Shown: positions 15,936-55,700 of the stretch, in pieces
How positions within the stretch are numbered: the first letter of the stretch is position 1
How the letters are laid out: each line of letters opens with the position of its first letter
Assembly (NCBI GenBank): GCA_031213475.1
Contig: JARUPZ010000013.1
Span: 2,630,231 to 2,694,230 of the forward strand
Source of the DNA: Nereocystis luetkeana
Lineage: Eukaryota; Sar; Phaeophyceae; Laminariales; Laminariaceae
Direction: 5' to 3'
Length of the DNA stretch: 64,000 nt
Notes under the pieces: generated by a model
Told to the model about the DNA's origin: nothing
Databases searched by the model: none
The model's input: the letters and a program-made list of their open reading frames with translations, nothing else
Program-made: the position numbers and the translations under genes

Positions 15936-15984
15936 ACTCTTATTCTACGGAAAAGGGGGGAGTCCAAGGTAGACGACGTGAGCA

Positions 15985-29429: not shown

Positions 29430-29948
29430 TATAGTATTCGTGCCACTACGTGATACCCCTCCCCCTCCCCCTTCCCCCTGTTCTCCCCATCTGGATGTTG
29501 TTGAGAGGTTGAACTTGGAACCTTGCTGACTGCTGACTGGCACTCGGCGGTTATGAGTTCTTCCACGAGAAGGAGAGCCTTACGAAAAACACGGGTAGTT
29601 CCTGTCCAAAAGCTCGACCTGTCGACAAATTCAGACAACACAGACGAGGAGACAAGAGAGAAATCGCAGCGCCAATGTTTGTTCAGAGGAATTACACCGT
29701 TGTTTTGGTTCTGCCATTGTTGTGATGTATCGATCACGAGCGGAAAGCCAATTGGTATGGATGTCTTTATTGAATCAACGGCAAGACCTCCTCTAACAAA
29801 GAACGAGAAGACAACCGTCCGAACGAGTGTGAATGGGTGGTACTTCTTCGAGCATTTACCGTGGTATTGTGTGGGATGCGATTCGACCAAAGGTTCGATC
29901 GCTCCGAAGCCTGATCGGGTGCTCAATCAGCGCGGTCAGTCGAACACT
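29430..29948. other. Segment paralogous to 46200-46560, possibly coding
   Basis: On the plus strand 29553-29650 reads VVPVQKLDLSTNSDN; at 46350-46400 the same frame reads VVSVQELDLSTEKTD. The DNA match is strongest around CCTGTCGAC and extends about 150 bp. The minus strand is also open here (29408-29926, 172 codons). The segment lies 1.4 kb past exon 6 of the proximal lectin-like gene, as its partner does for the distal gene, so it belongs to the same tandem duplication. Coding strand and function are unknown. Confidence 0.55.
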
Positions 29949-30661
29949 GCTATATACCTGTGTTGCACTCCCCACGAAAAAAACTGATATTACCAAAAGT
30001 CCCGACAACAAAGACAATGGAAGCACGTCTGCCGATGTTTTTTCTCCGAGGACATTTCGTTTATCTGCTCTAGCTCGACCGTTCCTTGCGGGAAAAAATT
30101 TTGTCAGACCGGATATGAGCGCCTTGGTGCACTCCCGTGAGTGTGCCAAAGCGACAGCATTTTTCGTGTCCTCCTTCATACCGGACCTTGTCGCTGAAGG
30201 TTGAAAATGTGGTACCAGGCGCTTGAATTTTCGGTTTCTTGTACTCTAAGTCAAGTTTTTTTTCCCCTGTAGAACGAGAAGGAGGAACGTACTCGTATTC
30301 TGGGTTCCGCCAGCTCTCGTTCTACAGCAGGAAACAATACTTGGTTACAGTACAAGAAACCGAAAATTCAAGCGCCTAGAACCACATTTTCAACCTTCAT
30401 CGATATTTTCAACCTTCAGCGACAAGGTCCGGTATGAAGGAGGACACGAAAAGTGTTGTCGCTTTGGCGCACTCACGGGAGTGCACCAAGCAGCTCATAA
30501 CTGGTCTGCCAAATTTCATCCCGAAAGGAACGGTCGAGCTAGAACAGACAAACGAAATGTCCCCAGAAAAAAAACGGCGGCAGACGTGCTTCGATTGACT
30601 TTGTTGTCGGGGCTTTTTTTTGTGTTTATTAGTGGGCAGTGCAGCACAGGTGTATATCATA
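29949..30661. repeat. Large foldback element, arms of about 300 bp
   Basis: The left arm (29949-30244) and right arm (30352-30661) are inverted copies, from ATATACCTGTG / CACAGGTGTATAT at the tips to GCGCTTGAATTTTCGG / CCGAAAATTCAAGCGC inside. The centre (about 30245-30351) holds a nested hairpin, TGTAGAACGAGA with TCTCGTTCTACA. Both arms encode, outward from the centre, the same open frame ending FVSSFIPDLVAEG (plus 29833-30204, minus 30409-30666). No transposase was seen. This resembles foldback or large MITE DNA elements. Confidence 0.88.
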
Positions 30662-30960
30662 CACACAGAAATGTCCTAAAATATCAGTATCGCTTCTACA
30701 CCAATCTGTAGTCTAAACATCCCTTTTGCTTAGGGACCGAGTAGAACCGGGTAAAGACTTACACACTGGTCGCCTGACAGCAGTAGTAACAACAACTCAA
30801 GGCGGACGGTTTGAGCAAAGCTCAACAAAAAATGCCTGCGCTGGAACATCAAGCGAACGCGGAGCGTGCATACTGACAAGGAGGCATGCTTCGAAGTATA
30901 TGTATTATGCTTAAACGTCGGGGACGGCAACACGCACGTTCTCAACTGCGTCGACGTTGA

Positions 30961-30981
30961 GGGGGGGGGGGGGGGGGGGGG
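30961..30981. repeat. Poly-G tract, 21 bases
   Basis: An uninterrupted run of 21 G. On the sense (minus) strand of the neighbouring gene it is C21, lying 405 bp past exon 6. The distal paralog has a C21 tract in the equivalent place (47404-47424), with a shared TAGATGACTGAATG-like block beside it. Confidence 0.95.
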
Positions 30982-31385
30982 CAGTTTGATCGTTACATGT
31001 ACAAGCGATAATCCTCTTAGGAGGTATAGATGACTGAATGACTGCACGACGTATACCCACCGTTTGATTCGACCAAGTCGCTGTCGGCTGCAAGTAAATA
31101 TTTCGAGAGATACCGCCGTAATCAGCACATATCCTGTACCAGTGCCATGGTATACGTAGGTATAGTCTAGTTGTTCTGCCAATACCACCTACTGCGTATA
31201 ATGATTTATTTTCCTCCTCAAGAGACTCGCCACAAAGCACGCATTCACAATATCTGTCATAACAACAATCGTACATGGTTGTAAAGTTTACTGTTGTTGC
31301 TACATATACGTTCTGATGAGGGGAACGAGGTTGACGCAGCATTGCACGCACGGATTTCTGGCCTCGGACGTAAACGTGTTCTTGC

Positions 31386-34300
31386 CTCAGTGATGCTAAG
31401 CCAGTCGTTGTAGCCAAGACCACGCGCCACGAGCTTGATAGTAGAGACATCGACGGCGTTGAGGGTCCAGTTTTCGAAGTCGAGCGTTGTGCCGCTCGAC
31501 GTAAAGGTGCCGAGGCTCGAGCCGTCACCTAGCACCTGGAGCGACGCCCAACGTCGAGGCGAGGTGTGGTACGGTGCGGTTCGGTGAGGGCGAGAAAGAC
31601 AAGTGCAAATTATGCGAACGGCCATGCTCCCTGCCATGGCGCGATATAAAGCGCCTTATCGTATCAAAACGAATATATAAGTAGACAAAATTTTATTCCC
31701 GAATGTACAAACAAATCAAAATCTCACCATAACTACCTGCGTCCCAAGCGAAGTGGGTACGAGTGAGTATTCCTGATTTTAGTATCATCCGTCGCCAACG
31801 CACCTTGATTTTCCGGGTGCGCTCGTCGCCCTTGTGGAAAGCGATGTTCATGCTGATCACGTCCTGGGGTGAGTCGAAAGCAAACTCCATGTAGCAATTA
31901 CCGTTGCCGAGGTTCTTGCTGCACGACCACCTTGACTCGGGAATAATGCTGCTGTCGCGCGTTAACTCCGGCAAGCAGCCCGTGTTACCGCAACCGTTAT
32001 TGTTGGAGGAGCGAGTGTCGTAAGCGTTAGCGCTCACGGATACGGTGGTCTTGACGGACGCGTCTTCTTGCAGGCTCGGGTGTACCTTACATATGCCGTC
32101 TACGCACAGGTCGTAGTCGAACCTGCAGTTGTCGTCGCTGGCGCATGCTTCGCCTGCGGGCAAACCGACAAAGAAAGAGAGACATATCAAGGGAGACGCG
32201 CGCGCACAACGGACACACACCATTCGATAGGAAAAGCATGGCGATAAGGGCAATATCTGCTGTTTCAAAGCATTCCACAGAGAACGAGAACATCGTGGAA
32301 CTTCGCGTGAGATAGAAGCCCCTTGTGGTACTCCGACGATTCGGTGCTCCGATTCAAAGTGCGCAGCCGCCTTTGTCTTATTGTTTACAACCGATCGCTA
32401 TGGAAACCCCCAAAAAATAAATGGCCGTCTTCCAAAAATTATGTGCACATACATGTTGACTGCACCACCAGTGGATTGAACTCTACTGGTTTGTCGAAAC
32501 TAAACTTACGTACGTCCCACAGAGCACCATCCCATACAACGGAAAACTAAAAAATGTGCCAGGTATGCATTACTACAAGCGAGGAAGGAGAGCGGGGGGG
32601 GCGCGGGCACGTTACGGACAATATTGTGTTGTCTCTATGTACCACTCTTACTATTAATGTGATGGTGACGATACATTGAAGCGAAAACGCCTAGACGAAT
32701 CATCTGCGGTGGCCCCTTCACTGCTTCGCCGCCAGTTTACGGCTTCGCCTCGACAGCAAGCCAAGGGAAAATAGTGTACTCTGCTGATGACACATACAGT
32801 ATATAGTACTGGCTGGCCCAGATCTGCGCTTGTTCGGCCTTCCACAACCTTAAACGCACAACATCAGCATGGCAACCCGCTGCTGAGACGAAGGAAAGCC
32901 CCACCTTACAAGCGAACTCCGATCGTCCGGACGACCAACCTATAGCCAAAGCGTGTTTGACGTTTACTGCGCTTAATCAATCTTGCGCAGGCTGCAACTA
33001 GTATATGCTTAGTAAACTGTTGGCGTGTGTTCGTTGTACGTTCGAGTATACAAGAAGTAATGGCCTCGAACAAACGTTCTACCCATACCTATTATAAGGC
33101 GTGAAACAAACCTTCAGTGAAGTTCTTACCGGAAATATACTTCGAAGCATACATACCTCGTACGAGTACGTGCCTCAACTAACCTGTGTCAGACTCGGCA
33201 ACCTCGCAGAACCCATTCCTGATAATGTTCGCACTCGAGTCCAACTCCGGAGGTACTATGCAGTCATGGCTCGTGTCGCAGCAGGGAACGCTGTTGCTGC
33301 ACGCAGAAGCTGTACCGGTGACAGTCAGCAGGACAGGGGAAGGGGGGGGGCAAAACTGAGTATCTCCAGCGCACTGCGTACGAAAACGACATACTACCAG
33401 GTAGTGTATACGAATCGACTCAACTTCTACACGATATTGAATACTGCTGTTGATTATATAGCGCTACCTGCTAGACCACTCAGTCAGCGCTGGCTGAGTG
33501 GTCTAGCATGCAGTGCTATAAAATCAACAAAATATATGTTTTAGAGTGTTCGTGGAATCTCGTCGACTTGGCCACAGTGATCTCCGGGGCCCTCCCCTTG
33601 CCAAACGCTACTTACTGGTGTCTAGAGGCACACTATCATATATTCGTCATTTGTTTTTCATTTTAAAGCGTGCGCGCTGGAGACAACACGATTTATTATG
33701 ATGGTGTGCCTCTAGACACCAGCAGCGTTTGGCAAGGGGAGGGCCCCGGAGATCACTGTCATGAAGTCGACTAGATTCCACAAACTCTAAACATATATCT
33801 TGTTGATAATATATAACACTACCTGGTAAACCACTCAGTCAGCGCTGACTAAGTGGTCTAGCAGGTAGTGCTATACAATCAACTACTACTAACTGCAAAC
33901 AAACAGGAAGCTTCCCTTGCTGTAGATTGGGATAACGCCCCCTTGTGGTTATTCGTTGTCATCGCATAAAGCGCCTAGAAAATATCATGCAAGTATTGCC
34001 CTTCTTCTTATTTTTTTAAATCCTTTCGTACTCCTGTAGTCTTCGACGTTGAAGCTTATGCAAACTTCATGCTGCACGTCGAAATATGTCAAACACAGGT
34101 GGCAATTCATGACAACTCCATGGCGACATGTACTAGTGGAAAATACCCGTGGGCATATTGATATGGTCCGGAAGCGTACCGGAAAGGGGCATCGTCGTGT
34201 TTAGCGTGTTACAATAATAGTGCATACCGGTAGGATCTAAGGGGAGTGCACCGGTGTATCTACCGGGAAGATCCTGCGCCATAAAATATTGTAGAACCGA

Positions 34301-37300
34301 GGGACTGATGCATCGCGCAGACTGCTTGCAATGCTGATTGCCGACGTTATATCTGGAAAACTTACACGTAACACATTGTTGTATGTATTGACTGTAAACT
34401 ACAGTGGTACGGCAGCAGTATATATTTAAGTTGTTAACACACCAGGTATATAAGCATGTTTAACCTGCAACCTGACGACGGGGTACTTATCTACGGTTCT
34501 CACCTAGCGCGGCGCACGCGTTGCCCACTGCGGGCTGGCAAATTCCTTCGATGCAGTCGTTAGCAAACAGGTTGCACCTGTCCTTTCCGCATTCGTTTTC
34601 GCAGGCCTGGCCTGTAAGGAGATTTACCGAAGAGCCAGCGAGACTAAAACAATGAGGCAAGCTTGAACGCGAAGGTTTACACAGAAGCCAGCGAGACCAA
34701 ACCAATGCGGAGAGTCCGAGCGTAAAGATCTATCCAAGAGCCAGCGCGATCAAAGAAATGAGGCAATTAATTCCGAGCGCGAAGATTTGCGCAAGAGCCA
34801 GAGCGACAAACTTAACTAGGGAAAATCCGAACGCGAAGCGCTATTAATATCATAGGACCATTCAAGCCTGTGGTCTTCACCTGTCGTTGCTGTATTTTCT
34901 GAAGTTCGTGGCCTACGCTGCACGGTGTGTGCGCAGGCTGCTGCGATACGCGCTATAGGATCGGTATACCAGGTGTAGGTGCATCAGCTTGCCCAGGGGA
35001 GCACGTAGCGAAAACTCCAGCGACCCAACTACTTTTCAAAAATTGGACAGAACGCTCGCGCCCCCGTCACTACTACTGTTTGTTTTTCAATTCGACGTTT
35101 TTGAGAGTGTGGTGTGGTTTTGTCCGTTCTCCCTGGTTTACCCCGATGTCTCCTCGGCGTGTCACCATTGCTTGCGAGGTCTTTACAAGAAAGGCCAATT
35201 TCGACAAAACCAGTCTCTACACTACAGGACGCCATTTATTTCACCAACTTAACTCCTGGAGTTTGGACATGCCGTGGGAACTTGGGCATGCCGTGGCTGT
35301 GCTGCAGTAGGTATTGGGTCGTCTATACTTCGCCTACGCGTGGTTTGTGTCTTATTCTTAGAAAACGACCAGCGCGGAAGGGTGTGTGAAGACTTCCACT
35401 GTTCAAAATACATACTGTGAGTAGTATAAGTGCGTATGTTGTATGCTGTATGCCGTGAATCTGCATCGTCAATCAGTCGTTGGTTGTGAGAGCTGTACAT
35501 GACTGATTTCCACAAATTCATAATATATATACTTCCACAAAGTCGGCATCTGCAGAGAGAGGCGGCCGAGGTTTTAGGTTGACTCGTGGGACTTGCTTCG
35601 TCGCGAGTCGGCCACGATCACCATGCTGCTGGGATTGTATTAATAGTGGATATTGCTGGCGTGTGTTTGTCTTTTTTCGAACGAACAACAACCTAAAAAG
35701 GCAAGTATGTTGTTCGCGGGTCAAAACCCGACCCGCGGGCCCAATCCGCAAGTCGGGGCAGGAAGTATTCAAAATCTCACGGGTCGGGTCGGGTCGGGTC
35801 AACAGGCTCCCAAAATCTCGCGGGTCGGGTCGGTTCAGTTGACCCTACCCGACCCGACCCGACCCGACCTGGCCCGTGAGGTATGACCTGACCAGCGAAC
35901 ATCTCTGGTATATATATATGAGGTCGCATCTTGCCTCCTGCACCTCCCTACCGTGATTGTGCCTCGTAGGCAGGTACTGCTACTGTATATACACAGTAAT
36001 TCGCTGTAATACTAATAGCCCCAGCTTAGGGACCGCCAGGAAAGAAGAAGGAACAGGGGGGGGCGGGACGACAGACCCACACCGATGACGTGGGAATGGA
36101 GCTTGGATACCGCTTAGGACTTAAGAATAGAACGTAATGAGAAGGAAGGAGCAAGGACAGCAAATGTAGTAGACAAGCCGAAAGTTGGCACAGAAAGGAG
36201 GTAGACTTGGTGCGTGGGTTTCCTTTTGCTTCCGAGGTTTTCTTCTTTCGGGAAAGATATGAGCGATCAATGTTGAAGATCATGCTGCACATTGTCGGAT
36301 GGCAAGAGAAATAATAATAGGGCACGGATAATTACATATTAATAGCGCTGTGTACAGCTTTTCCTACTGAGTATAATATGTTGTCGCTATCATTGTTAGG
36401 CCTGTACAGTCTTAACTTGTCGTCGTAAGCCGTCTCGAGTTGGTTGCGATGGCCGCGCGGAAATTGCTTGGTTGGCCTTGCTGCCGCTGGTGGAGTTGGG
36501 CAGAGTTGCGTTATTTCAGTTTGTTCCACCACGGTCATCCGGTGGTACAGTATGTAGTAGGACTGCAAGTAAGAAGCATCCTTCGTCCTTGCCTCACTAA
36601 CTCACTACGAGTACGACGAGTACCACTCCACGATTATGACAACAACAGCGTACGAGCACATACTGCTTGCTGCATACTCGTACTTGTACTTGTATTGCAC
36701 TTCGTACAAGTCAAGTGCACGATAGGTTCCCTTACTGGATACCACCTGGGCTACCCCCTTCATTGTATATCTCCACATGTCTGCATCCACATATATATCC
36801 GCACTCACTCGCCGTGTATATATTGCGACAGGAACGTAGGAAGTGTTACGTTACGTACTACTGCTGTATGTGCAAAAGTATCAATAGTCCATCGATTATA
36901 CCCTGTACATACCTTGCTCGTACGTATTCATATGATACGTGATACCTGGCTCGTAGTGCGGCATTTCCGCCGCTATATTTGCACAGACAAAATTACGTAC
37001 CAGGTACCAGGTACACAAATACCACTACTATCTGATGTACGAAAGGGGTGTGGGTCACTCGTCACGCGTGCATGGGTACTTTAGAACCGCAGTCCCGTTT
37101 TGGGGACAAACCATTCAAAGTCCAAGTAGTTTGTCCCCAAAACGGGACTGCGGTTCTAAAGGGGTTAATACCAGGTATGATACTTGGTGTGTCGAACGGT
37201 GAGATGTCAAGATACTTGCCATGATGAGGGTGGAAAAACCTGATGTGGCAGAAACCTTCATCGCAGTCGTGCACTGGGTCGCAGCATTCCAGGCCGTTCG

Positions 37301-38673
37301 TGGAGCACTCGCCGTCTGGATACCATGCATGTGGCAGGAATAAGGCGACATGCGGAACAGGGGGAGGAGAAATATGAGTAGGATGGTCGGGGTGAAACGC
37401 ATGCACGCAACAGAGCAACAGCAGCAAGCAGTAACGCCGGTCGCTTACTCACTTGCCGTACCGGCAACATTTATTACGTCACACAGACAGCAACCTAGGG
37501 AGAGAAAGTCCCAGAGTAGGTTTAGCCGTAGCCTTTACCCTTTCCCCCTGAACCCGGGCTATAGCCGGTAGTGCCGGATTTTTCGGCTGACACGTAGCAG
37601 CGCATACACATACATACCCTGTACTGGTCTGGTATAGTACTTGGTTGTTGTTGTTGTTGTTCTCACATTAACTCCCCGACGAAGGAGTCCGTGGTCATAC
37701 AAAGGTGCTGGAGCCCTAGGAAGATCCAAAAAAAAAAAAAAACGAAAGTTCGGCTGCCTCGAAATACACGAGACGAAGAAAGCGCACGAGCTAAAACCAA
37801 TGTGCAAACTGAACTAACATGGCCGCGGGTATATCCTCTCAACTATAACATAGAGTACCCCCGTTCCCACCACTAACCAACTCGTGGCTGCTGACTACAG
37901 CGGGTGCTGTCTGAAGTGTTGCCTGCACCGTACGAAACGCACGGTAGTCCTGAAAACGAAAGAGGAACACACCTGCCTGCTATCTGGAGTGCTGTCAGAG
38001 TGAAGACTCGCGGATATGCCGTGAAAAAGGAGCAATCGAACCTTACTACCACACGAATATCAACGATCGCCATCTCTTCCTGGGCTGTCTGACACAAAAA
38101 GGTGCAGCACATTTATGATACCACGTCCCTGATAATTGCGTAGGTTATTCCCCATGAAGGTACCAGGTACCAGGTATGTATCTATGCATACAGTGTACGA
38201 GTAATTTTCCTGCACCGATTGATTACATGCTTGGCATCAAAATGAGGAAAAAGTTGTGAGATCGACACAATTGGCACACATACATTCCTTCGCTCGTTAC
38301 TTTTTAATAGATTGTTGTAAAAGCCGGGAAGCGGAGACCAACGAAGTGGATTACTATCAGCCGATGTCTATGATCATCATCGCACATATCTGCCATTGGG
38401 CATTGCGCAGCATACGGCACAAGCTTTGACCTCTATTGAAAGACAAGTTGTTCTCGCAAAGATTGAGTTGCGACTGCTGCTGTATACCTTACTTATACCT
38501 GTTACTGATGTATAGCTGCTTTTCAAGTACAACAATCGAAGGAGTTCAATCTACGCGTTGTCTTACCCCGTTCCTTACGCTTGCTTACCGAACACCGCGC
38601 ATGTCTCTTGGCCAGCTCCTGTTGATAAGACCGCCAGAAGAAGCGTGATTATCACCGCCTTCTTGTTGACCAT
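31386..38673 (-). CDS. Secreted cysteine-rich, F5/8C (discoidin-like) protein, proximal copy
   Basis: Six exons on the minus strand: 38673-38589, 37315-37220, 34611-34504, 33309-33184, 32153-31804 and 31535-31386, totalling 915 nt (305 codons). The start is the ATG of MVNKKAVIITLLLAVLSTGA, a clear signal peptide. Exons 2, 3, 4 and the start of 5 are cysteine-rich modules ending in CDEGFC, CIEGIC, a longer NGFC, and CVDGIC. Exons 5-6 form a domain with SRWSCSKN, ISMNIAFHKGDERTRKIKV and YNDWLSITE, the strand pattern of F5/8 type C or CBM32 lectin domains. Exons 1-4 join in phase 1; 5 to 6 is phase 0. The introns after exons 2 and 6 appear to begin with GC. The 3' end is unresolved: a small terminal exon ending at a TAA at 30911-30913 is possible. 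Probably an extracellular or wall protein that binds carbohydrate; the ligand is unknown. Confidence 0.8.
33449..33883. repeat. Foldback DNA element with hairpins inside each arm
   Basis: 435 bp, starting GTTGATTATATAGC and ending GCTATACAATCAAC. The left arm runs to about 33650 and the right arm from about 33700, pairing through GGTGTCTAGAGGCACAC, TTGCCAAACG and GGGGCCCTCCCC. Each arm carries near its tip its own hairpin around ACCACTCAGTCAGCGCTG (33461-33521 and 33815-33875). Flanking TACTGCT / TACTACT may be a 7 bp target duplication. It has no coding capacity and lies in intron 3 of the proximal gene. Confidence 0.9.
34621..34840. repeat. Minisatellite, four units of about 54 bp
   Basis: AAGAGCCAGCGAGACCAAA-like units start at about 34630, 34684, 34737 and 34793, each followed by AATGAGGCAA and CGAGCGCGAAGATTT variants. 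The array begins directly upstream of the exon 3 acceptor (34612) of the proximal gene, in intron 2. No similar array flanks the matching exon of the distal gene. Confidence 0.85.
35711..35880. repeat. GGGTC / GACCC pentanucleotide repeat in inverted arrangement
   Basis: Four GGGTC units at 35781-35800, two more at about 35823-35832, then about four or five GACCC units at 35839-35868. The block can fold on itself. It lies in intron 2 of the proximal gene. Confidence 0.9.
36247..36312. repeat. Terminal fragment of repeat family 3 (GTCGGATGGCAAGC)
   Basis: TTTCGGGAAAGATATGAGCG through CACATTGTCGGATGGCAAGA closely matches 56224-56293. The final block is the inverted-repeat end of the element at 42614-42866. 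Confidence 0.75.
37079..37168. repeat. Hairpin MITE, family 2
   Basis: TTTAGAACCGCAGTCCCGTT pairs with its complement ending AAAGGGGTTAA. The left TTAA is lost and the right one is kept. It lies in intron 2 of the proximal gene, 50 bp past exon 2, so the copy inserted close to the unusual GC donor. Confidence 0.92.
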
Positions 38674-38830
38674 AGTTTCACAAAAATAGCTTCGCTTCGA
38701 CTGATGACACGGTAAAAGGTTCGCGTGGGTGTATCGGCCGGCGGGAGCAGTACGTGTAGCGCTCTATGCTGGAATTGGAGGGAGTGCGAGAGGCGAGGGC
38801 GTGGGCGTGTGTTGTGTGTTGTGTCATTTT
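38674..38830 (-). promoter_or_regulatory. Leader and proximal promoter of the proximal lectin-like gene
   Basis: Upstream of the ATG, the minus strand keeps blocks also found upstream of the distal gene: GGCCGATACA (38728-38737 here, 55560-55569 there) and CGCCCTCGC further up (about 38795 and 55669). Together they show that the 5' flank was duplicated with the gene. I see no firm TATA box. Confidence 0.5.
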
Positions 38831-40284
38831 GTGGTGTTATTGTTTTCCTCCGTTCTTGCGTCCACAGTGTACAGGTACGTATGTGAAGCTCTGTTTTCAA
38901 AATGTTCATCTTTCGGTACGAGGTACTATGATAGGGTTCAGAACTTGGCAAAATACCAGCAAGCAGTCCACGGACTTGATTGTGGCAAATGAGTAGCTCA
39001 CATACATACATGTCATGTCTATATTATGTTGACCGCATATATATACTTAAAAGAGCAGTATTTATCACTTACTTACTTGTCAAGTAAGTATAGACGTGAC
39101 CGAGTATAGACTATCATACATACCACAATGTGACATACCGGTACCACAATTGACTATTATTATTGTCATAATAATGTGGTTGACAACTGACTGGAAAGTC
39201 GTGAGGCATAATATACAGCAGTAGTAGTAGTATATGCATGTCCATCACGTTCCAGGAAGATTCTTCAAGTTCTAAGTAAGTGGCGTTCTAAGTGCTGTGA
39301 GAAGGGCGCGCATAACATTCTTTCTTGTGTGTGGCGTAAAAATTACCCCGACCCGCACGGTCGTATCCGACGCTGCTTTCCACATCATCATGGCTGGTAC
39401 AAAATGTGGAAGGTTGAACGGAGGAAATCAGGGGTTTGTGGAGAGGTTAAATCCTTGGCAGGGGCCGGGGTTACAGTACGGTAGGGTTCTCTGCAGAAGT
39501 TAGCAGTCTATAACCAACGGGTGTGTGCTACATACATAGGCACTCTTACGATCGGAGAGCTTTATCTTCCATACTCGTACTAGGTTCCCCTACCTACCTG
39601 GTATTTTAGCCGCGGTTTTCTCTGCGTGCGAGTCCACGCACGGCTAAAACGCCAGTACGATTCAAGTTTGGATGACACAGCACAGCGCATGCATGTGGTA
39701 GGTGGCTATTCACGCACAAAGAAACTCAAGGAAGTTTGGGTATAGGACCACCGACCGGGGCAGGAGGCCTCATCCAATCCAATACTTACATTGAATGATC
39801 AGCGGCAGCGTGAAAGAATACTACTGCTGTACCTGGTAGTGTTTTTTTTTCGCGCAATTTTTTTGTCCTCCAGATTTTCCTGACTTTTTTTTCCAAAATT
39901 TGAAATATATATATGTATGTGTGAAATTCAACTTGCCTGATGTTTTTGCTTCTTCTGGAGAAATCGCGAATAGTGACAGAATGCCTCCGTATCTTGATAC
40001 GAATCTCGAAATATTTTCAAACTGTGGTCATTCTGGAATATAATAAGCTCTCCGATAAGAATGAGCACAATAAGGTCCAGCACTTACTTCTTGAAATAAA
40101 TGGTTCCAGATTCATTCATGATGAGCAAAACCAAATCTTAAATTTCAGATTTTGATGGTGAGGTAGTAGTATGGATGGCAGTTCATTTGTCGCTGTTATT
40201 CCGAAATCCGTCGCCATAATATTAAGGTCCGTGATCACCGAACAGGCTCCAACAACTTGGTTGGGCATATCGGAGAAGAACTGC
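38831..40284. other. Intergenic stretch with one repeat fragment
   Basis: The only feature I can support is a copy of the AGGAGGCCTCATCCAATCCA unit at 39768-39832. The rest is AT-rich with short repeats (AAGTAAGTA, TATATA). No gene recognised. Confidence 0.5.
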
Positions 40285-40397
40285 CATTACGGAGGGCTAT
40301 AGTAAATATAGGACCAAATATTGTTGGTCAAAAAAGCGAAATATATAGTTTTTTGTGTTTACCGTAGGTCCCCCATTAACTATGGTCCCCCGTAATA
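40285..40397. repeat. Hairpin MITE, family 1
   Basis: The left end is worn (CATTACGGAGGGCTATAGT) and the right end intact (CTATGGTCCCCCGTAATA). The centre keeps AATATTGTTGGTCAAAAAAG. About 113 bp. Confidence 0.88.
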
Positions 40398-42613
40398 GTG
40401 TGCTGTACGAGTATCAGAAATCATGTGTGTATCTCTTACAACATGCATGTACACAGGCTAATTCAACCTGAATTCAAAAAGGTATTTAAGAGCCGGAATT
40501 TGACGCCGTGTTCGAGAGATACATCCTTAATGTTTACAGAAGTCCGTCGCGTGTTCTATGAGCGCCCTCGACCCGCTACCTCAAGCTGTAGCTTCTTCTG
40601 ATCATGTTTCGTCATGTAACTGTTTTTGTTTGTTTGTGGTATTGAGGCCTTCAGAAATCCCAAATTCCGGGAGGAAGAACACCCTTGTGAGTTAACGGGT
40701 CGACATCAGTGACTTATAGAACGCGTATACAATAATAATGCAGGCTCCCCCTAAAAAAAAAGACGTGAATATCTGGGCTTGGAACTACAGCAGAAGCACA
40801 TCGTAGTGGTACTTCCAGTAGATTTTTCGGCATGGGACCAACTTTAAACACAACTTGACGTGCGTACGATATAGGTCTACGCAGTCAGATAGATCTTGGC
40901 GTATTATTTGCGCAAAAACACATGCACATACAATACGAAAAAACTGACTTCGTCAGAGGGAAACGCCTGGCGCCTCGTACTGATTTCGTGATTGGATTGT
41001 GGTTGGGACACACAATAATTATCGTCGCTAGCGCCACCCCTAGGCTCCAGCGGAACAACTAACTATGTGTGGATGTCACCCTGTTCCGCGTTTGATATCC
41101 GTCAGTTTGATGCCCAGTATACATGCAAGTAGCAGTGGTCTCTTTCTATGACCCCAGCCAAAACATAGCGCGGCAGCCGGCACTACTCAGGACGTTTCCA
41201 CAAGTAAGTAAGTGACAGTCTCATGTGTACCAAACGAGATGTTTTCACGCTATATATAGCGGGCCGCCGGCAGTACTGAGCCGGCTCTAGAAAAGGATCC
41301 CTGCACAGCGGTGTTGACATTCGAGTAGATATTGCATGCGGCATTTGAACCAGTTCACAGTTGCACTGGTACAAATCAACTAGACGGAAGTCCAACAGGC
41401 GTAGATGTTTCACTTCAAAGTAGACTTCGATGGGGCTTTACAGGCCGAGCGTGTCAACGTCAATGGCTTCCATGATAATTCATGGGACTCCGAGCGCTTT
41501 CACTTGGTTCCCAGAAAAGTCCCATATAATACTCAAGATACTATAGCGACTGTCACGGAACTTTCATGAGATCTCACGAAACGTTTTTGGGGTCCTGCCC
41601 ATGAGCGAACGCATCATCATAACAAAAGAACAAACAAACGTCAACGGGCAGCCCTACTATTTCATGAAAAAAGCCCGTTATTAAAACACTACTTACTACT
41701 ACTACTGTACAGAAAAAAACATGAAACCACTCTAAAAAGTCATCATGAAAACCGTTGCAACGCCACCAACGTTCATGGCAACACCATGGAGGCGTTGTGC
41801 AAGCCCTTGATGAAAAACATAGATATGCCACTAAAGCTCCGCGAGAAGCAACGCAGTATAGTAGTACCAAACCAGGAAAGAGCCGCATGAATGCACGCGA
41901 AAGTCGACGACAGGCTCATGCAAACCCCATGAAATCACCATGCAAAGGAAGGGCCTGCTGTACGTACGTAAAACGCACCATGAGAACTTCAAACACGCAT
42001 ACATACATGCAGGCACTGCGAAGAAAGGTTTATTAGGTGACTTATCTCCTTTGTTGCGGCGTTTTGATTATAAGAGTATGCTTCCCCGTGCAATGCCTGG
42101 CAGCCGCAATATGTCCTCCTCTGGATGAAGAATCGTCCGACACCCCTTTAAAAAGTTTCCGAAAGTTTGTCAAAGTGATACCCAGGCGAGGCCAGACTCC
42201 GCAATTTCTACCAGAGGCAACGTCCTAGCGTGAAAGCAGCAACCCCCCCACCCGTGTGCATGACCTCGAGCAGAGCTGGAGGCGCCCTGTATAGCGGCAT
42301 AGTCGGCCCCTACTACTGCTAATAATGTCGGTGCATACTGTCCGTTATCACACTGGCGTTGTTCAATCGGCGAAGACTACTACTACTACTACTGCTTCCT
42401 GGTTCGTCCTCGACAGATTTTTCGTTTCGAGCATAATTTGAGCATTCCCTCCGGTTCCCCGCTGACTGCTTTCTGTTTGTTTCTTCGAAGTCAGATGGAG
42501 GGATGTTGGTCGTAGTAGTCTTCATGAGCGTCACATCAGTTTTTATTTGTCGTATGACACTGCCACGCTTTTTTTCTGCAGAGTTGTTGTTCGCTTTCTG
42601 TCAGCCTTTTTTT
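40398..42613. other. No gene recognised; CATGAAA-rich part
   Basis: Between about 41460 and 42010 the short string TCATGAAA and variants (CCATGAAA, CATGAGA, CATGCAA) occur about a dozen times with no fixed period. Overlapping frames (41574-41888 minus, 41755-42036 plus) follow this bias. Nothing else stands out. Confidence 0.4.
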
Positions 42614-46199: not shown

Positions 46200-46560
46200 T
46201 AGTGACAGCAGTGCACGCGAGCCTCCCTCCCGTCCGTCTGTGAGCTCAAGGCCGCTGATTCGATGATCGCGTGGTGTGCACGTGGAGCTCTCATGACCAC
46301 TAGGCGGCACGCTGCAGCTCTTCGCTGTAAAAGAGTCCGTTTAGCAAGAACTGGCGTAGTTTCTGTCCAGGAGCTGGACCTGTCGACCGAAAAAACAGAC
46401 AAGATACAAGCCAAGGAGAGACAAGGCATGATTCGAAACGTCGTCGGTTGCTTTGAAGGTGCGGCGCATATTGTTTCCGTAATTGATGCCGTAGTTGACG
46501 AGCGTGAAACGAGCGGAATGGAATGTTCGAAGTTTTTTCTGTAGGGTATACATACCAAAC
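46200..46560. other. Segment paralogous to 29430-29948, possibly coding
   Basis: The plus frame 46263-46544 (93 codons) carries VVSVQELDLSTEKTD, matching VVPVQKLDLSTNSDN at 29.6 kb. The two lie at the same distance and orientation from the exon 6 copies. After about 50 codons the two frames diverge. The minus strand is open as well. Confidence 0.5.
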
Positions 46561-46985
46561 CCATACCCGGGGTATTTACTCGGGCGGGCATTGCCCCACA
46601 AAGAACTTCTGCCCGTTCTGCACGACAAGCATACCCGTACCCGGAACTTCTGATAGCTTTTTATGGCATTTATACCCTTACCCGAAACTTCCGTAAGTGC
46701 CATGCGCCCGTGCCACGATACCCAGGGTACGGGTACAACACCCCACACCCGTACCAGGTATTTATTTGTGTGGGGTAAATACCCAGACGATAGGGTAAAC
46801 ATCGGGGTATGCCCGGTACCCGTCACTTTGCGGTGCGGTAACGGATTCGGGTACAGCATTCATATACCCGCCCGGGACTCCTGTGAGTTCAGTAAGACTT
46901 CCATGCAATAATAGCCGGAACTTCTATGAGTTTTTTGTGAGGCTTCCATACCCGTACCCGGAGCCTACGAACCCTTACCGAAACA
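46550..46985. repeat. Degenerate TACCCG-rich satellite
   Basis: ATACCCGTACCCGGAACTTC and shorter pieces (GTACCCGG, CGGGTACGG, GGGTATTTA) recur on both strands over about 430 bp, in a pattern of short direct and inverted repeats with GAACTTCTGAGTT-like spacers. No gene. Confidence 0.7.
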
Positions 46986-47403
46986 TAATTTTTGGAATTT
47001 CCGTCAAACGGCAAGAGGAAAGCGAGACCGAAACTCACCCAGAGAGGCTCATTTCTCTTGTTTAGCATATGAGTATACAGTATATAGATACTAGTACATC
47101 CTTGATATATACGTGTCGGTAGGGTGTATGGTGCGCTTTGACCGAACATTCGGACCCTGTTTAGCCTGAATGATGGCATGCTATGCGCCATCATCAGGCG
47201 AAAAGAGGTCCGAACTGATTTGCCTTCCAGTCATTCGCACCCCTTACGACAACATAACAACCCAAGAATGACGCTTGAGGGCTCAAAACAGACACAGCCG
47301 TTATCGCAGGCCCTTCGGAGACAACCACGAGCGCGCGTACCGACATACACCAGCGTCGAGGATGGCAGTACTACGTTGTCGACAGCAATGGCGGTGCAAG
47401 GCC

Positions 47404-47424
47404 GGGGGGGGGGGGGGGGGGGGG
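47404..47424. repeat. Poly-G tract, 21 bases
   Basis: 21 G on the plus strand, C21 on the sense strand of the distal gene, 385 bp past exon 6. It matches in position the tract at 30961-30981. Confidence 0.95.
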
Positions 47425-47808
47425 TAATTGGTGGTTATTGAATTTGTCTTCGGTAGTCTGCCATAAACGTGTAGATGACTGGATGTCTAAAGGGTTTATA
47501 CCGTGGCGTTATATTGGATCATAACAGCACTACGTCTTCAGCACGTCACTACCGCGAAGATGTCATCCGACTGAATGCACGGCATGGTTCACGACCATGG
47601 TCCATGAACTTTTTTAATTCGCTGCCATAGCATAAATATATAATGGTAAGGGTTTCTTCTGTTCACGCTGACCACAATCATGCACCGCGTACAAAATAAA
47701 GCAGTCGAGAAACCAAAAGAACAGACGGATACGAGCGTCACTCCTTCTATATATCGAGCGACAACAGATCGAGGAGTAGTAGCTCCACATGCACAAACAC
47801 CATCTTGC

Positions 47809-50800
47809 CTCGGTGATGCTTAACCAGTCGTTGTATCCCAGATTACGGGCGACGAGCTTGATTGTGGAAACGTCGGCGGCGTTGATGGTCCAGTTTTCGA
47901 AGTCCAGAGTTGTGCCGCTCGAGGTAAAGGTCCCAAGGCTCGACCCGTCACCCAACACCTGGTGAAGACGCCCGACATCGCAGGACAGCAAGGCACGATA
48001 CGATGCGGTGGGGTGACATGCCGTTTGGCGCGGGGGGACACGGTGTGAAAAATAGTAACAAATGTATTAAACCGGTGCAAGGAATTGCCCTATACACTAT
48101 GGGCATGTAGCACACTCCTGAGTGCGCACGAGCGAGGGTTGACAACAACGAAATACGAAATTGTCAAGGGAAAAATGCTACCCTGAGTATAAGCTCTTCC
48201 CTCTGAAACGCAACGCCACGAAAAAATCCGCAATCGAACAACGCTTGGCCAATCCACCTTGATTTTCCGGGTGCGCTCGTCGCCCTTGTGGAAGGCAATG
48301 TTCATGCTGATCACGTCCTGGGGAGAGCCGAACTCGAACTCCAAGTAGCAGTTCCCGTTGCCCAGGTTTTTGCTGCACGACCACCTAGACTCAGGCATGG
48401 TGCTGCTGTCGCGCGTCAAGTCCGGCGAGCAGCCCGTGTTGCCGCAACCGTTATTATTCGAGGAGCGGGTGTCGTAAGCGTTAGCGCTGACGGATACAGA
48501 GGTCTTGGCCGAAGCGTCTTCTTGCGTGCTGGGGTGGACCTTGCATATGCCGTCTACGCAGAGTTCGTAGTCAAACCTACAGTTTTCCTCGGTCAAGCAC
48601 GGTCCACCTGTGCGCGGACAGATTGAGACAGAGAGATGGTGAGGGAGGGGAGAGAGGAGAGCGCGGATACACGGACGCACAATCATTCAGTATTGATAGT
48701 GTAGAGAACATATGAAGATGAAAAGGACTGTACCGTCACTGGTGTCGATCTCCACGGAGTGCAACGGTACACGTTGCCCTTGGGGGGGCACTAGCAACCG
48801 AGGAGGATAGCCATGCCTAGAGTGAGGTAGCCAGAATGGGATAAAAATTAAGCACATACATGCCATGCGGGTAGAGTCTCGACATTGTCACGTCGCGAAA
48901 CTATTCAGCAGAACAGTGCGCCTACTATATAGTGCGAAAGCGGAAGGCTGTGCTAGCCTGAAGTTTCACTAGACACTACACAGTAGGCACGACTTCATAC
49001 AACATGGGAATACGCTTGAAAAAAGTAGGCAGGCGGACAAACCGTAACATGTTGATACGATACATGATGATCTCGACTAAACCATCTGTCTGTACCCACC
49101 GGCACTTGTCGTTTTGCCTCAACTTACCCGTGCTAGACTCGGCAACCTCGCAGAACCCGTTCCTGATGAAATTTGCGCTCGAGTCCATCTCCGGAGGCAC
49201 AATGCAGTCATGGTTCGTGTCGCAGCACTGGATGATGTTGCTGCAGGCGGCACCTGAACCGGCGCCAGAAAAAAAAATGGAATGTACGGGGAAATCGCGT
49301 GAAAGGCCAGCATAGAGCATAGAAGTGAGTCCCGCTTCGACAAAGCGGTTGCTACAGTGTGCACACACAAATTCCTTATGGCGTTACGGCTTCACTCTAG
49401 GATATTTCACAGACGATCCAGATTCGGCTTACGTCGGGGTTTCGAGTGTAGAGCAGTCGGTTATATTTCAACCATTTCGTCAAAGCTGGGCCGAGACCTA
49501 CCGCAGACAGGGTAACACTGCCCAGAAGAGTATGTAGGACGGATGTATGTGAGGGGTAGTGTGAAAGGATGGCATGTAGTGGCGAGAGGTCCTTCGATTT
49601 TTGAACACTTCAAACGGATCGAACAATTGATTGTGGTTTGTTGGGGTAACCCGTTGCCGACATCGATAGCATCAACTATATCTGGACGTACAAGGGGGAC
49701 GTTTGGGTATACATACTCCGGGTTTTCCACTTGAAGATCATGCGTTTCAAGGGATTTCGGGAGTTCAGGCCAGGTAGATCTCGGCTTGTCTCGAGAAAAT
49801 AATACATCGGCATTAGTATGGTCAGCATTAAAGATGAGACCATATTGTGCATGAGGCCACACGTTGATCGGTTTGCCACGGTGTGGTTAAAAAATCGAAA
49901 CACTCACTCTGCATGTGTATCCCAAGACACGCCTTTTGTTTTCGTACAGAGTTGAAGCCAGAAATCCACCAACTGCTGTGGCTCACCAGGCGATTGGTCG
50001 ATAGGTGCACTAAAACGGCTGTAAAATGCGGAGTTTCTTCATTCAAAATTGTCACAAAGCCGCGAAAAAATTCGGGTCTACATGACACAACGCTAAAATT
50101 GGGCACACCCGGACCGGAGGAGCAATACCAGGCAACCATGCAGCTGACGACAAGAGCCGTGTTTACGACCCATCTCGTGAAGTGGTGGGCCGCAAACAAG
50201 TTCAAATCCCCAAGTGAATCACGAAACTGCATATTATATATATACAACAACAACCCTTTCTCCTCCCCTGATTAGCGTTCAAGATATTTCAACATGCACG
50301 TAATTTCCCCCGCAATGTGTGCGGGTTGTATTTGCGGTACTTTTCCATGCGCCAAAAAGCGTGGGGCGACTGGATTCCCGGTGAGTAGTATACTGTCGTC
50401 CCGTCGCACCTGAGAGCATCCAGAGGCGGCGCTGGCGTGTTTTCTTTGCGAGGGCTGTCGAGCGCACGTTATATATGCATCAGTCGGCTTGAAAATGTTG
50501 GCTATGCTACATACAGCTGGCCTGTTTGTTCGTCGTGTGTGTAATATCCACGCCGATATAAATGTTCGAGGGTGTGTCTACCGTATTACGGGGGACCATA
50601 GTATATAGGACCAAATGTGTACTATCCACGCCGATACAAATGTTCGAGGGCGTGTCTACAGTATTACGGGGGATCATAGTAAATAGGGCCAAGTACTGTG
50701 TTGGTAAAAATAGAAAAAGTAAATAGGACCAAATACTGTTGGTAAAATAGGAAAAAGTGGATGTGTTTGTGTGTACCGTAGGTCCTATTTAATATCATGC

Positions 50801-53800
50801 CCCCCGTAAAATAATAGAGTAGATTTTCTGAGGGTATCCGGGTACCTAAATGTAACCGAACATGACCACGTCAACCAACGTCCATACACGAGTACCCCAG
50901 AGCATATAATGCTGATGCAGGTAGTTTGCTGCAGCGGCGATAGCCAGTGTCCAACGAGGCTCTGATCGGGGGCGGGCGTCGTTCGTGGCCAGATGTGTGA
51001 ATTACGCAGCATGCATCGTCTGCGTTCGGCGTCTTGGAGTATTATTGAAGCACACACATGATAGAGAGAAAATTGCGGTCTGACCATGCGTTATGAACTT
51101 GAAAGTGGCACAGAGACTGATACGCGAACATGCGGCACACCAAGTTCCTGTTCGAAAATCGATGCGTTGCAGCGCGTGCTTGTACGTAAAAGCACATTGT
51201 GAGAATTTTGCTGTTGTTGTTGGTAACTGGTCACCCTCGACGAGCAACTATCAAGGGTATATTGCTGTGAGTCGGTCAATACGACGACGCAATAGGGAGC
51301 CTCTACGCAGCCGTAGATATCGCACTCTTCTGATATTAACCCCTTTAGGACCGCAGTCCCATTTTGGGGACAAACTACTTGAAATTTTAATGGTGTGTCC
51401 CCAAAACGGGACTGCGGTCCTAAAAGAGTTAACCGAGGGAGGTTTGCAGATGCGCCCCCAAGGTTTAGCTAGACCTTCGAACCTCTCTCGTCTGTTATCG
51501 TGTCTTCCTCAGTTGAGCCTAGCGAGGGCCATCTTTCAATAACATACAAACAGATCGCGATCGGTCACGAACCTGCCTAACACGGCGGTTTGTGCAAAGC
51601 CTGTGGAGAAGAATATCGACCAAAATGTCGCATGCGGTCCCTTCGCCAAATTTTAGCCTACTATGGAGACGCGCCCTTCAAACGTACCAGGTATCCTGGT
51701 ATGAAATACTTTTCCTGTCACACCTTCATTTCTTGGCGATTCTCACCTAACGCAGCGCATTCGGTGCCCACCGCAGGCGCGCAGAGTCCGTCAATGCAGT
51801 CGTCGGCAAATGGAGAGCAAATAGTCTGCCCGCAGTCTTCGCCGCAGACCTGGCCTGGTGTAGGTCAATGCAACAGCAGCGGGCGAGACGATGCTACTTT
51901 GTTCAGCTGGTTTTGAGTGCATGTCGCTGACATTGAAGCGAAATCTACTGGTACACAAAATCAGTGTTGGAATTATAGAGGACGTGATATTCATACTACT
52001 TACAGTAGTAGTAGTGCAAATAGGGCCGTGCCATGGTACACTTCGGCAGGTGGTCTGGCACTACAACACCCCGCCGCATATCTGGCCCGCGGAGGTGTTA
52101 CACAGCAACGAGCGAAACAGCAACGAATGCTGCTCCTTCCGCTGTCTCATGAGTAGCGAATGACGTGTCGAAGTGTGTATACTGTGTATTATTGTCGGAT
52201 ATAGATCAAAACAAACGTGCTTTTCATAGCCGGTACCACAGTAGTAGTATAAATAGTAAAGTAATCCAGCCGTATAAAATGCTGTACAGCGTTTTTCATA
52301 CTGTACTGCTGTAGTTATTCATTGTGTTCGATGCATATTTCAGATTCTACGTAACAGGTGTCTAAGTTCTGCTGCCATTCAACTCGCCAGATCTGGTGTG
52401 TACATTAATCATGCCCGGTACTGCTGCGCCATGCCTGGGTTATCGTAGGATATACCAGGTAGCACGTGCGACAAGACAACACACCCTCGGATGAACTTGC
52501 TTTCCTCGGCAACCGTGTACACGCAACTATCTAGCGATGAGTCTATGGCAAGATCGCCGCGAGATATTTCCAGAGGCATCATTCCTGTCGGGGGTGTCTC
52601 GGAGGGTCCGTCATCCTGCGTGTTCTACGGCACAACAAGTATGTAAGATTACGGAGGTTCCGAAGAGAACGAAAACACAAAGAAAAACAGGCTTTGTTTT
52701 CGAGATTCGTAGATCCATTAGATTCACAGAGGAATAGAAGCAGTAACAACAAGAAGCGCGAAAACTACGGTTTTGGGCAGGTTGCATTCTCTATTCTCTC
52801 TATCGCTTCTCTTGGAACTCGGCAGCCGTTATTCCAAACGTTTTGTGCAGCACATACATCAAAACCTATTAAATTCTCCAAGAAAGAAGCAGCCCACAGC
52901 CTGTGGGGCATTAATCGTTCCTGGAGAATATGTGACAGAAGCAGTGTGCAGTACAAGGAAGTGATCTCGGAGAGGCTGAACACGTTGGCTTGCGAGGGTT
53001 GTTTTTTCTTCAAACCATCAAATACAGAGCAGTACACAGATTTTCTTGTTGAAGTCTCTCGCCGTAGTCTTCTTCCCTGGAAATAAATGATCATCATCAT
53101 GAGTATTAGACGTTGAACCTCATGCTCCGCCGTGGATCTTCTCAATCCGACGTCCCTGGATTTCTGGGTGACTCTAGTGGACATATACGAATTATTATTA
53201 TTATGCTTGCCATCCGACAATGTGTAGTGTTGTTCTAACAAACGACTAATAATTAATAACAGAAAGTGAAGAACTCTCCAGAATAAAAGCGCGGCAGTAT
53301 CCTACGACAAATCAGAACATGTACTATAATAGTATTATTGGTTTCCGGTACGGGAACAACAATGGCCGCTACTTTGGCACGCTGTGCTCGGACCTTCGGC
53401 TGGTAGGTGTCCTGGTAGAGAGTGGATGTATGTATGTGTCAACGTGGTGGCTCGTCTATCTGTAGACGTGTCGTGTGTGGCTATCTCGAGATTGGCTGGC
53501 TTGCCCACAGTAGTTTCTCAATTGATTGAGGTCTCCACCTCGATTTGTAGGTAGGTAGGACCTGGTGCTGCAGTGTGGTTGAAACTGGTCAAGGTTCGGT
53601 AGGAGGAGAGGACCAAAACAAGAAAACAGCCCCCGACTAACTGAAAAACCTGCACTGACCTGCATTTGATTTACTTGGGGGCAGTTACAGCTCCCCACGT
53701 TCAACTTCAGAGCACGAAACTGATTCGCGCTCCTTATTTATTTATGGGCTGTGTTTCCGGCGCCCAGAAACTGTTGTCACGAGGTAGGTAGGTGCTCTCA

Positions 53801-55513
53801 TTAAATTTTCCTCGAAGTAACTTGCCAGTCTGCAGCACCAAAGAGCCGCGAAATCGAGGGAGTATAGAATGGTCGCGCGCCGGCGCCCACATGGCTGCAA
53901 CACGAATGAAAGAAGGATTTAATTAACCAGACGCTTGCTGATTTCCTCGCGGATCATTTGAACCATCACGAAGTCTCGATGCCGTGAGAGGTACTTTGTG
54001 GCACATCATGCTTCAGCTCAAAAATGAGGGGGAAAAAGGGCTACGCGTATACTAAAAAGCAGCCTTGGCCTCTTGTATGTTTTATAAAATTATGAAACAT
54101 GTCAGCTGTGAGTTCGACTGTGATTAAATAGTCGATATACTCAGCTTTGCAAGCTAGCTGCGTAATACGTCTCGTCTGTGTTTGGATGAAATGTGTTGCC
54201 TGAAACCGAGAAACGATGGATCCTGTTTGTTCTCAACTCCCTCTACTACTACTACTACTTACTGCTGTATTATCCAACCGATGTTTTATATTGGCCATAC
54301 GCTATAATCTGAACAATAGATACCTGAGAGTTTCCATCCCGGCCTTGAACACAATACTCGTAATAATACCAAAACAGGTAAAAAAAGGTGGTATATTTAA
54401 GGTGTCATGCGCTGATGGAACTCCACCACACCGGGGAGACCGCCATCAAACTACAATAATCGCACCGTGTATCGAGGTGTGCCTGAGTGTGAGCTCGCGG
54501 TGTATGAGTGTGTTCCGATATCATCATGCTGTTCGGATGCAAATACATGGCACATACATGTATGTATGTATACTCGCCGTGGTGGGGGAAGAATTGCCTG
54601 ATGTGACAGAAACCTTCATCGCAGTCGTGCACTGGGTCGCAGCAGTCCAGGCCGTTCGTGTAGCACTCGCCGTCTGGATCATTGTTTGTGCACAGCAACA
54701 GGCGGCACAACATTGAATGGGATAAATGTATGTGTCCACAGAACAACAACATATTCAGGAGTGAAAGAAGCACTCGATCGCCACACAATAATTATTACCA
54801 GGTATTGTTTTCCTTTGGTTCTCTTTCTATCAGATACGTAGGGGAAATGTTTAGACAACATCATTAAAGTTCTCGTGCTTGGCGAAGTCGGATGGCAAGC
54901 GAAACAAAAATGATGACTGGGAGGAGCTGGGCCCGAGTACGCCTTGCAAAGCACCCACAGACAACGAAAGCGGTACGATGGTATTACACTCCGGAGAGAA
55001 AACAAATAGAAGTGCACGCTCCATGCACCCCTTAATCCGCGCTACGTACTGCTCTGTAGCGGAGAACGTGAAAGGTTTTAGCACGTAGAAACAGATACAA
55101 CATACGTTCCCTCGTACTTGCATGACATATGTATCTACGTATACCTGCGAGAAAAAATGCACGACACAGCAGAAGAAGAAGCAATCTCATCCTACACACA
55201 GCATGTAGTAGGTATGTCATACCCCGTACCTGGTATCAGGCATCAGGTATGTATTTCGTGCCGCAATACACGATTATCATATACCGACGTGTATCGCCGA
55301 CGCATTCAAACTAAAATACTCCCAACTCCCCAAGGAAACACTAAACTTCGAAACATCGGTTGTGCTATGGACAAGGTCGTTCGACAATGCGTACCCTTCA
55401 AAATGTTGGCGGCTCGCTAAAGATCGCTTACCGAGTACTGCGCATGTATCTTCGCTAGCGCCTGTTGACAGAACCGCCAAGAAGAGGGTGAACACCACCG
55501 CCGGCTTGATCAT
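47809..55513 (-). CDS. Secreted cysteine-rich, F5/8C (discoidin-like) protein, distal copy
   Basis: Six exons on the minus strand: 55513-55432, 54673-54578, 51854-51747, 49253-49128, 48607-48258 and 47958-47809, 912 nt (304 codons). The ATG at 55513 starts MIKPAVVFTLFLAVLSTGAS, a signal peptide; an in-frame GTG further up is less likely. The order of modules, splice phases and the sizes of exons 2-6 equal those of the proximal copy. By my count exon 6 differs at 3 of 50 residues and exon 5 at 17 of 117, but exon 3 at 15 of 37, so the lectin-like half is kept and one cysteine module drifts. GC donors again follow exons 2 and 6. The 3' end past exon 6 is not resolved. Likely a secreted carbohydrate-binding protein. 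Confidence 0.8.
49461..50232 (-). CDS. Hypothetical two-exon membrane protein nested in intron 3
   Basis: Exon 1 (50232-49908) starts MQFRDSLGDLNLFAAHHF and has one hydrophobic segment (about residues 22-40, WVVNTALVVSCMVAWYCSS) fit for a signal anchor. It ends at a good donor, A|GTGAGTG. Exon 2 (49789-49461) follows a weak acceptor (TTTTCTCGAG) and keeps phase 1; the intron would be 118 bp. A TATA-like run lies at about 50233-50245. The frame would give about 217 residues. I recognise no family. It has the same strand as the host gene, and no counterpart was seen in the proximal copy. If the intron is wrong, these are two unrelated frames. Confidence 0.4.
50539..50705. repeat. Tandem duplication including a MITE end
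   Basis: A unit of about 91 bp, from TATCCACGCCGATATAAATG through the MITE start TATTACGGGGGACCATAGT, is repeated directly (50543-50618 and 50621-50709) with few changes. The first copy holds only the left end of the MITE; the second leads into a complete element. Confidence 0.85.
50652..50813. repeat. Hairpin MITE, family 1, internally duplicated
   Basis: Ends are TATTACGGGGGATCATAGT and ATGCCCCCCGTAAAATA. The inner TAAATAGGACCAAATACTGT block is present twice, making the element longer (about 162 bp) than its relatives (109-122 bp). Confidence 0.85.
51337..51432. repeat. Hairpin MITE, family 2, with TTAA flanks
   Basis: It starts TTAACCCCTTTAGGACCGCA and ends with the complement ...GGTCCTAAAAGAGTTAA. 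TTAA at both ends is the target duplication used by piggyBac-type transposons. It lies upstream of nothing coding, in intron 3 of the distal gene. Confidence 0.9.
51860..54570. other. Intron 2 of the distal lectin-like gene
   Basis: Apart from a family 3 repeat end (53203-53236) and a short CTACTACTACTACTACTTAC run (54244-54263), I see no element here. An open frame on the plus strand at 52694-53086 and one on the minus strand at 52765-53241 overlap, and neither is recognisable. Confidence 0.5.
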
Positions 55514-55700
55514 TTTCGAAAGAAATCGCCTCGAGTGACGCGGTGATTTACGGGTGGTTGTATCGGCCACGTATGGGTACGCAGATCAGATGGAACACAG
55601 CAGCAGTAGTGAGTAGTTGAACTTGCTGGGTGTTGTGCGGGGGGAGGGGGGTGAGAGAGGTACAAGCGAGGGCGTGTGTGGGGGGCAATAAAAATGTTTC
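55514..55700 (-). promoter_or_regulatory. Leader and promoter of the distal lectin-like gene
   Basis: Blocks shared with the proximal gene's 5' flank are found here (see 38674-38830). The distance from ATG to the shared GGCCGATACA is about 46 bp here and 54 bp in the other copy. Confidence 0.5.

Follow-up and report, generated by a model that had tools for sequence, protein, structure and literature searches.

The 64,000-nucleotide window of the genome of the brown alga Nereocystis luetkeana considered here (C13:2630231-2694230, in an assembly of 465 Mb) carries two neighbouring minus-strand genes in head-to-tail arrangement, each encoding a predicted secreted protein with a C-terminal CBM32-like (F5/8 type C) domain. 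We think it probable that these are two old paralogous genes within a clade of five, the coding parts of which have been kept whilst their surroundings decayed, and that their products are secreted and likely to bind alginate. The duplication itself is ordinary. It is the product that matters: a putatively secreted brown-algal protein with a domain whose best match of solved structure is a bacterial module that binds alginate. Since a bacterial CBM32 by itself reportedly binds calcium-alginate beads and swells them without cutting (PMC8776709), a CBM32 protein lacking an enzyme could act on the wall of the alga itself.

Self-comparison of the window identified collinear blocks at 29.5-38.7 kb and 46.3-55.5 kb, offset by 15.9-17.4 kb; taken on the minus strand, these correspond to the exons of two genes, with order and strand alike in both. 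An initial annotation of this DNA, made from the sequence alone, had described six exon-sized blocks repeated in this way about 16-17 kb apart and had taken them for two secreted lectin-like paralogues in tandem, and both points hold. Gene 1 (copy 1; 38673-29580, minus strand) has seven exons and encodes 317 amino acids, whilst gene 2 (copy 2; 55513-46341, minus strand) has seven exons and encodes 316. The clade of five genes with this seven-exon layout has three members on C13 and two on C28: besides the two genes of the window it comprises C13b (C13:2537235-2545600, plus strand), 135 kb from gene 2, and two further full-layout paralogues, C28a and C28b. Intron phases are 1, 1, 1, 1, 0 and 0 in both window genes and in all five modelled paralogues, and exons 2, 4, 5, 6 and 7 have the same length across the five complete models. 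The splice sites of these models, listed below for the window genes, were placed by conservation among the paralogues.

38589..38673, minus strand: gene 1 exon 1 (start codon and putative signal peptide), matching gene 2 exon 1
37220..37315, minus strand: gene 1 exon 2 (Cys-rich module 1), preceding GC-AG intron 2
34504..34611, minus strand: gene 1 exon 3 (Cys-rich module 2)
33184..33309, minus strand: gene 1 exon 4 (Cys-rich module 3)
31804..32153, minus strand: gene 1 exon 5 (Cys-rich module 4, then the start of the CBM32-like domain)
31386..31535, minus strand: gene 1 exon 6 (continuation of the CBM32-like domain), preceding GC-AG intron 6
29580..29618, minus strand: gene 1 exon 7 (last part of the domain, with the stop codon), an exon common to all five paralogues
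55432..55513, minus strand: gene 2 exon 1 (start codon and putative signal peptide)
54578..54673, minus strand: gene 2 exon 2, preceding GC-AG intron 2
51747..51854, minus strand: gene 2 exon 3
49128..49253, minus strand: gene 2 exon 4
48258..48607, minus strand: gene 2 exon 5
47809..47958, minus strand: gene 2 exon 6, preceding GC-AG intron 6
46341..46379, minus strand: gene 2 exon 7, which carries the stop codon

All five models are open throughout (313-317 amino acids). Amino acid identity between genes 1 and 2 in exons 1-6 is 66%, 86%, 61%, 66%, 73% and 94%, as measured on translated matches that extend slightly beyond the exon borders. The ratio of replacement to silent substitution rates (dN/dS) is 0.17 for the window pair and 0.10 for its CBM32 part. 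That the introns are rich in repeats might suggest decaying or repeat-borne copies without function, but with neither a frameshift nor an internal stop in any of the five models and dN/dS of 0.17-0.35 over the ten possible pairs, we regard this as very improbable.

The initial annotation had counted six exons plus a further recurring segment, 1.4 kb past exon 6. The segment does recur, at 29595-29638 and 46356-46402, but it is the seventh and last coding exon and not flank: it has a stop codon at its end and an AG acceptor before it, is found in five of five paralogues, and the match to the bacterial AlyQ protein described below spans the exon 6-7 join. It is easily mistaken for flanking sequence because intron 6 starts with GC. 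Introns 2 and 6 each have a GC donor in four of the five genes, with an AG acceptor; the exceptions, with GT at the same sites, are C13b (intron 2) and C28b (intron 6).

37219-34612 and 31385-29619, minus strand: GC-AG introns 2 and 6 of gene 1
54577-51855 and 47808-46380, minus strand: GC-AG introns 2 and 6 of gene 2

A wider family of CBM32-like genes, described below, was sampled at 40 loci, these being the next best-scoring after the five genes, out of 118, with near-identical copies kept in. For the intron-6 donor, nine of the 40 gave no in-frame reading at the site and two were missed by the search pattern; all 29 readable members have GT there, and GT is therefore probably the older state at intron 6.

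What recurs in the window is a gene pair and not a visible 17-kb segment. The proposed dot-plot comparison does give a collinear diagonal over the exons; outside them, where the absence of a diagonal was to count against a duplication of gene plus flanks, very little was found beyond one clear patch in intron 6, with the remainder marginal. Corresponding introns and 3-kb flanks were aligned locally and the scores set against maxima from 60 shuffles, with a repeat run of 30. The only clear non-coding match is a patch of 160 bp in intron 6, with a score of 35 against shuffle maxima of 19 (60 shuffles) and 16 (30 shuffles). Inside it lies the repeated C21 tract that the initial annotation had correctly picked out, at 30961-30981 and 47404-47424; its distance from exon 6 is almost equal in the two genes, and apart from these two copies the window has a single C or G run of at least 12.

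30916..31075, minus strand: intron-6 patch of gene 1 around the C21 tract, collinear with gene 2
47354..47521, minus strand: intron-6 patch of gene 2 around the C21 tract, collinear with gene 1

Introns 1, 2, 4 and 5 score 19, 19, 16 and 16 against maxima of 16, 18, 15 and 14 in 60 shuffles and 15, 20, 17 and 17 in 30, such that among these four intron 1 alone tops both sets. Similarity in intron 3 of the window pair is at chance level by the same comparison, and the 3-kb 3' flanks of the pair do not match (score 15; shuffle mean 14.4, maximum 17). As for the 5' flank, recurrence was claimed at the outset and a marginal match exists, scoring 28 at 150 bp, 29 at 300 bp and 33 at 1000 bp where 100 single-base shuffles reached at most 27, 27 and 28 respectively. 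The stronger upstream match on the diagonal (40266-40405 with 56890-57030) cannot be counted as shared flank, since it is a dispersed repeat present at many places in the window. This short repeat of about 90-135 bp, which thus mimics a shared 5' flank, occurs on both strands at 8895, 10051, 40286, 50718, 56908, 57348, 60180 and 60515, and is also found within gene 2 intron 3 (score 41 against the gene 1 upstream flank); between intervals that do not correspond, other repeats reach scores of 66 and 59. The limits of the unit first duplicated are beyond recovery. A perfect 28-nucleotide inverted repeat with a single nucleotide between its arms lies at 55992-56048, about 480 bp upstream of the gene 2 start codon.

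Corresponding introns of the two genes are unlike in both length and repeat content. Since the repeats occupy different places in the two genes, independent repeat invasion of the introns, as put forward in the initial annotation, is supported. The elements concerned, including those resembling miniature inverted-repeat transposable elements (MITEs), are as follows (strand not applicable).

30097..30516: foldback repeat in gene 1 intron 6, with nested arms of 112 and 89 nucleotides
33448..33883: nested foldback repeats in gene 1 intron 3
37079..37168: MITE-like element in gene 1 intron 2
51336..51432: MITE-like element in gene 2 intron 3, of the same family as the copy in gene 1 intron 2

The inverted-repeat listing of the window includes no foldback in gene 2 intron 6. 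Similar MITE-like elements are found at other positions in the paralogues, namely in intron 1 of C13b, C28a and C28b and in intron 2 of C28a. Elsewhere in the window, a minisatellite at 24093-25860, with about 20 copies of an 87-88-bp unit, lies outside both genes, and open frames on both strands at 15066-18075 resemble Ty1/copia polymerase and RNase H and may be remnants of these.

How the pair arose may be less simple than its tandem arrangement would imply. Silent divergence (dS) between the window genes is 0.67 (95% bootstrap interval 0.51-0.87), pointing to an ancient gene duplication, after which introns and flanks would have diverged and been invaded independently by repeats, the coding parts being held by purifying selection. 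A single segmental tandem duplication of about 17 kb, embracing gene and flanks and producing exactly this pair, with flanks since decayed, would fit the shared order, strand and offsets, and we give it somewhat less than an even chance. The pair is supported by the amino acid tree (93%) and the tree of first and second codon positions (88%); dN is lowest for the pair, at 0.114 compared with 0.149 for gene 2 and C13b and 0.165 for gene 1 and C13b, in 97.9% of bootstraps; and among the ten pairs the intron-6 patch with its C21 tract is exclusive to these two genes. Silent sites, however, tell against it. Between gene 2 and C13b dS is 0.42 (0.32-0.54), lower than that of the window pair in 99.7% of bootstraps, whereas gene 1 and C13b stand at 0.66 (0.51-0.85); the third-position tree joins gene 2 with C13b (73%), and on third positions the bootstrap proportions from resampled log-likelihoods (bp-RELL) exclude the window pair (0.029). 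Moreover, the 3' flank that the window pair does not share is collinear over 300 bp between gene 2 and C13b (score 42 against a maximum of 19 in 30 shuffles), the corresponding match of gene 1 with C13b being weak (22 against 20). The initial claim of one duplication of gene plus flanks is not supported in the form in which it was made.

These same observations suit a history in which copy 1 was the first to diverge and a later duplication gave rise to copy 2 and C13b, now on opposite strands; the replacement sites would then reflect gene conversion or a slow rate of change in the copy 2 protein. The chances of this history we put at not quite even. Copy 2 and C13b are also alike at the end of intron 4 (although this stretch is pyrimidine-rich), and copy 2 has the shortest branch. 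Opposed to it are the dN values, the intron-6 patch and the failure of the approximately unbiased (AU) test to separate the trees. Indeed, the AU, Kishino-Hasegawa and Shimodaira-Hasegawa tests reject none of the three branching orders (AU p 0.08-0.94 over four partitions, from 5000 resamplings, which is below the number advised by the program). bp-RELL excludes the tree joining gene 1 with C13b on first and second positions (0.049) and on amino acids (0.031), and all-codon trees leave the order open (53% and 59%). The C28 pair separates from the C13 trio in all four trees, at 97-100% support. Within the trio we read a near-trichotomy, in which a later split of gene 2 and C13b is slightly more likely than a simple tandem pair.

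The encoded protein comprises a putative signal peptide, four Cys-rich modules and the C-terminal CBM32-like domain spread over exons 5, 6 and 7; each of the Cys-rich modules starts in a separate exon that follows a phase-1 intron. The N-termini are hydrophobic and signal-peptide-like, there is no further long hydrophobic stretch, and the proteins contain 26 or 27 Cys residues. With the Cys-module (N-terminal) region as query at E values up to 0.1, a search of the whole genome returned 20 places, which sort into four exons in each of five genes, and none elsewhere; against the PDB the modules gave no match at E up to 10. The best solved match for the C-terminal domain is the CBM32 of AlyQ (7d29), with an E value of 1.3e-8 for the provisional splice and 1.3e-7 for the corrected five-sequence profile A3; in both searches the match crosses the exon 6-7 join. 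Counting along the alignment, AlyQ residues R248, W303, D209 and T214 correspond in the window proteins to R, W, D and S, none of which varies among the five genes; the first two are R86 and W136 of alignment A3. In AlyQ, as described in PMC5651945, R248 may contact a carboxyl group, W303 is the counterpart of a critical Trp in YeCBM32, and calcium is held by D209 and T214. Alginate binding in assays is reported for the CBM32 domains of alginate lyases from bacteria and diatoms (PMC8776709, PMC11960938). On this basis the protein would be exported to the extracellular matrix, where a Ca-stabilised fold would most likely bind uronic acids of alginate, perhaps at chain ends, through the AlyQ-like Arg and Trp, the Cys modules possibly forming a disulphide-bonded stalk or a partner-binding part.

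Several points weigh against this reading. The splice sites, GC donors above all, rest on conservation. No Pfam family matches any of the five proteins above its cut-off (best E 0.13): PF00754 (F5_F8_type_C) gave a weak match over 98 residues with the provisional splice (E 0.009-0.055; 14-16.5 bits against a gathering score of 28.2) and none at E up to 10 once the five corrected models were used. Alginate as ligand is guesswork built on a match of 35-38 bits, and AlyQ's own CBM32 is reported to bind cleaved, not intact, alginate (PMC5651945). Silent sites, finally, place C13b and not the tandem neighbour nearest to gene 2, so a tandem duplication of the pair may be off in detail. Ligands of CBM32 domains vary widely according to the same article, and the domain may instead bind fucoidan, galactose or microbial glycans and serve in microbe recognition, for which the size, clustering and variability at the Arg position of the wider family might also speak. 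The proposed uronate-binding Arg and Trp are, however, invariant in the window clade, and we hold another ligand to be a serious possibility that falls well short of even.

The wider family came to light with a query around exon 5, which found at least 123 exon matches in the genome (E ≤ 0.001). Most of these (70 of 123) lie in an array on C3 (C3:5934154-7095761; 1.16 Mb) at a median spacing of 15.4 kb, and 64 of the 70 contain no stop inside the match. C3 as a whole has 71 matches and C22 has 16, between 7.8 and 9.0 Mb. The PF00754 model, by comparison, finds two places in the whole genome, neither among the 123, and these exon matches are direct candidates for testing. Like the window genes, members of the wider family have the domain and an intron at the same place before its end (29 of 29 readable), but they differ in having no match to the four Cys modules and, in the 29, a GT donor. 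At the position of AlyQ R248, 38 of the 40 sampled loci were readable and have R in 16, N in 16 and D in 6; the 20 of these on C3 have R in only one, N in 13 and D in 6. The Trp position has W in 26 and F in 3 of 29 readable loci.

It is tempting to see here a large brown-algal set of enzyme-free secreted CBM32-like proteins, invisible to Pfam and acting on the alga's own alginate, either loosening or cross-linking the calcium-alginate wall in an expansin-like manner or sensing chain ends released by attackers, with the change from Arg to Asn or Asp on C3 marking a branch with a different ligand. This is speculative and, on present evidence, rather unlikely. A literature search by title and abstract, which did not reach many journals, found no such algal family described, and we make no claim of unpublished status; in PMC8307928, 'discoidin' occurs in the abbreviation list only.

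EsV-1-7 has at least 150 matches in this genome and none in any of 14 control genomes. The EsV-1-7 family is reported to be expanded in brown algae (PMC7457493, PMC12477816), in keeping with a brown-algal host; as its domains are found also in giant viruses and an Ectocarpus transposase (PMC12477816), the number of matches would not by itself be proof of this. EsV-1-7 repeats are present in an open frame at C13:2567423-2569018, about 22 kb from C13b.

Two known systems bear comparison with the window proteins. The first is the AlyQ CBM32 of Persicobacter (PDB 7d29, 5xnr), which resembles them in sequence and shares the Arg, the Trp and the Asp of the Ca site, Ser taking the place of the Thr; AlyQ, however, has a lyase domain where the window proteins have Cys modules and no recognised enzyme. 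The second is the diatom Nitzschia sing1, which according to PMC11960938 has 91 alginate-lyase genes, 77 of them with CBM32, gained from a bacterium (a Vibrio gene), and whose CBM32 C-domain pelleted with alginate. There CBM32 is fused to PL7 lyase domains, whereas no lyase domain was found in the window proteins; in both cases, likened here by description only, a stramenopile has an expanded and mostly secreted (in the alga, putatively so) set of CBM32 proteins.

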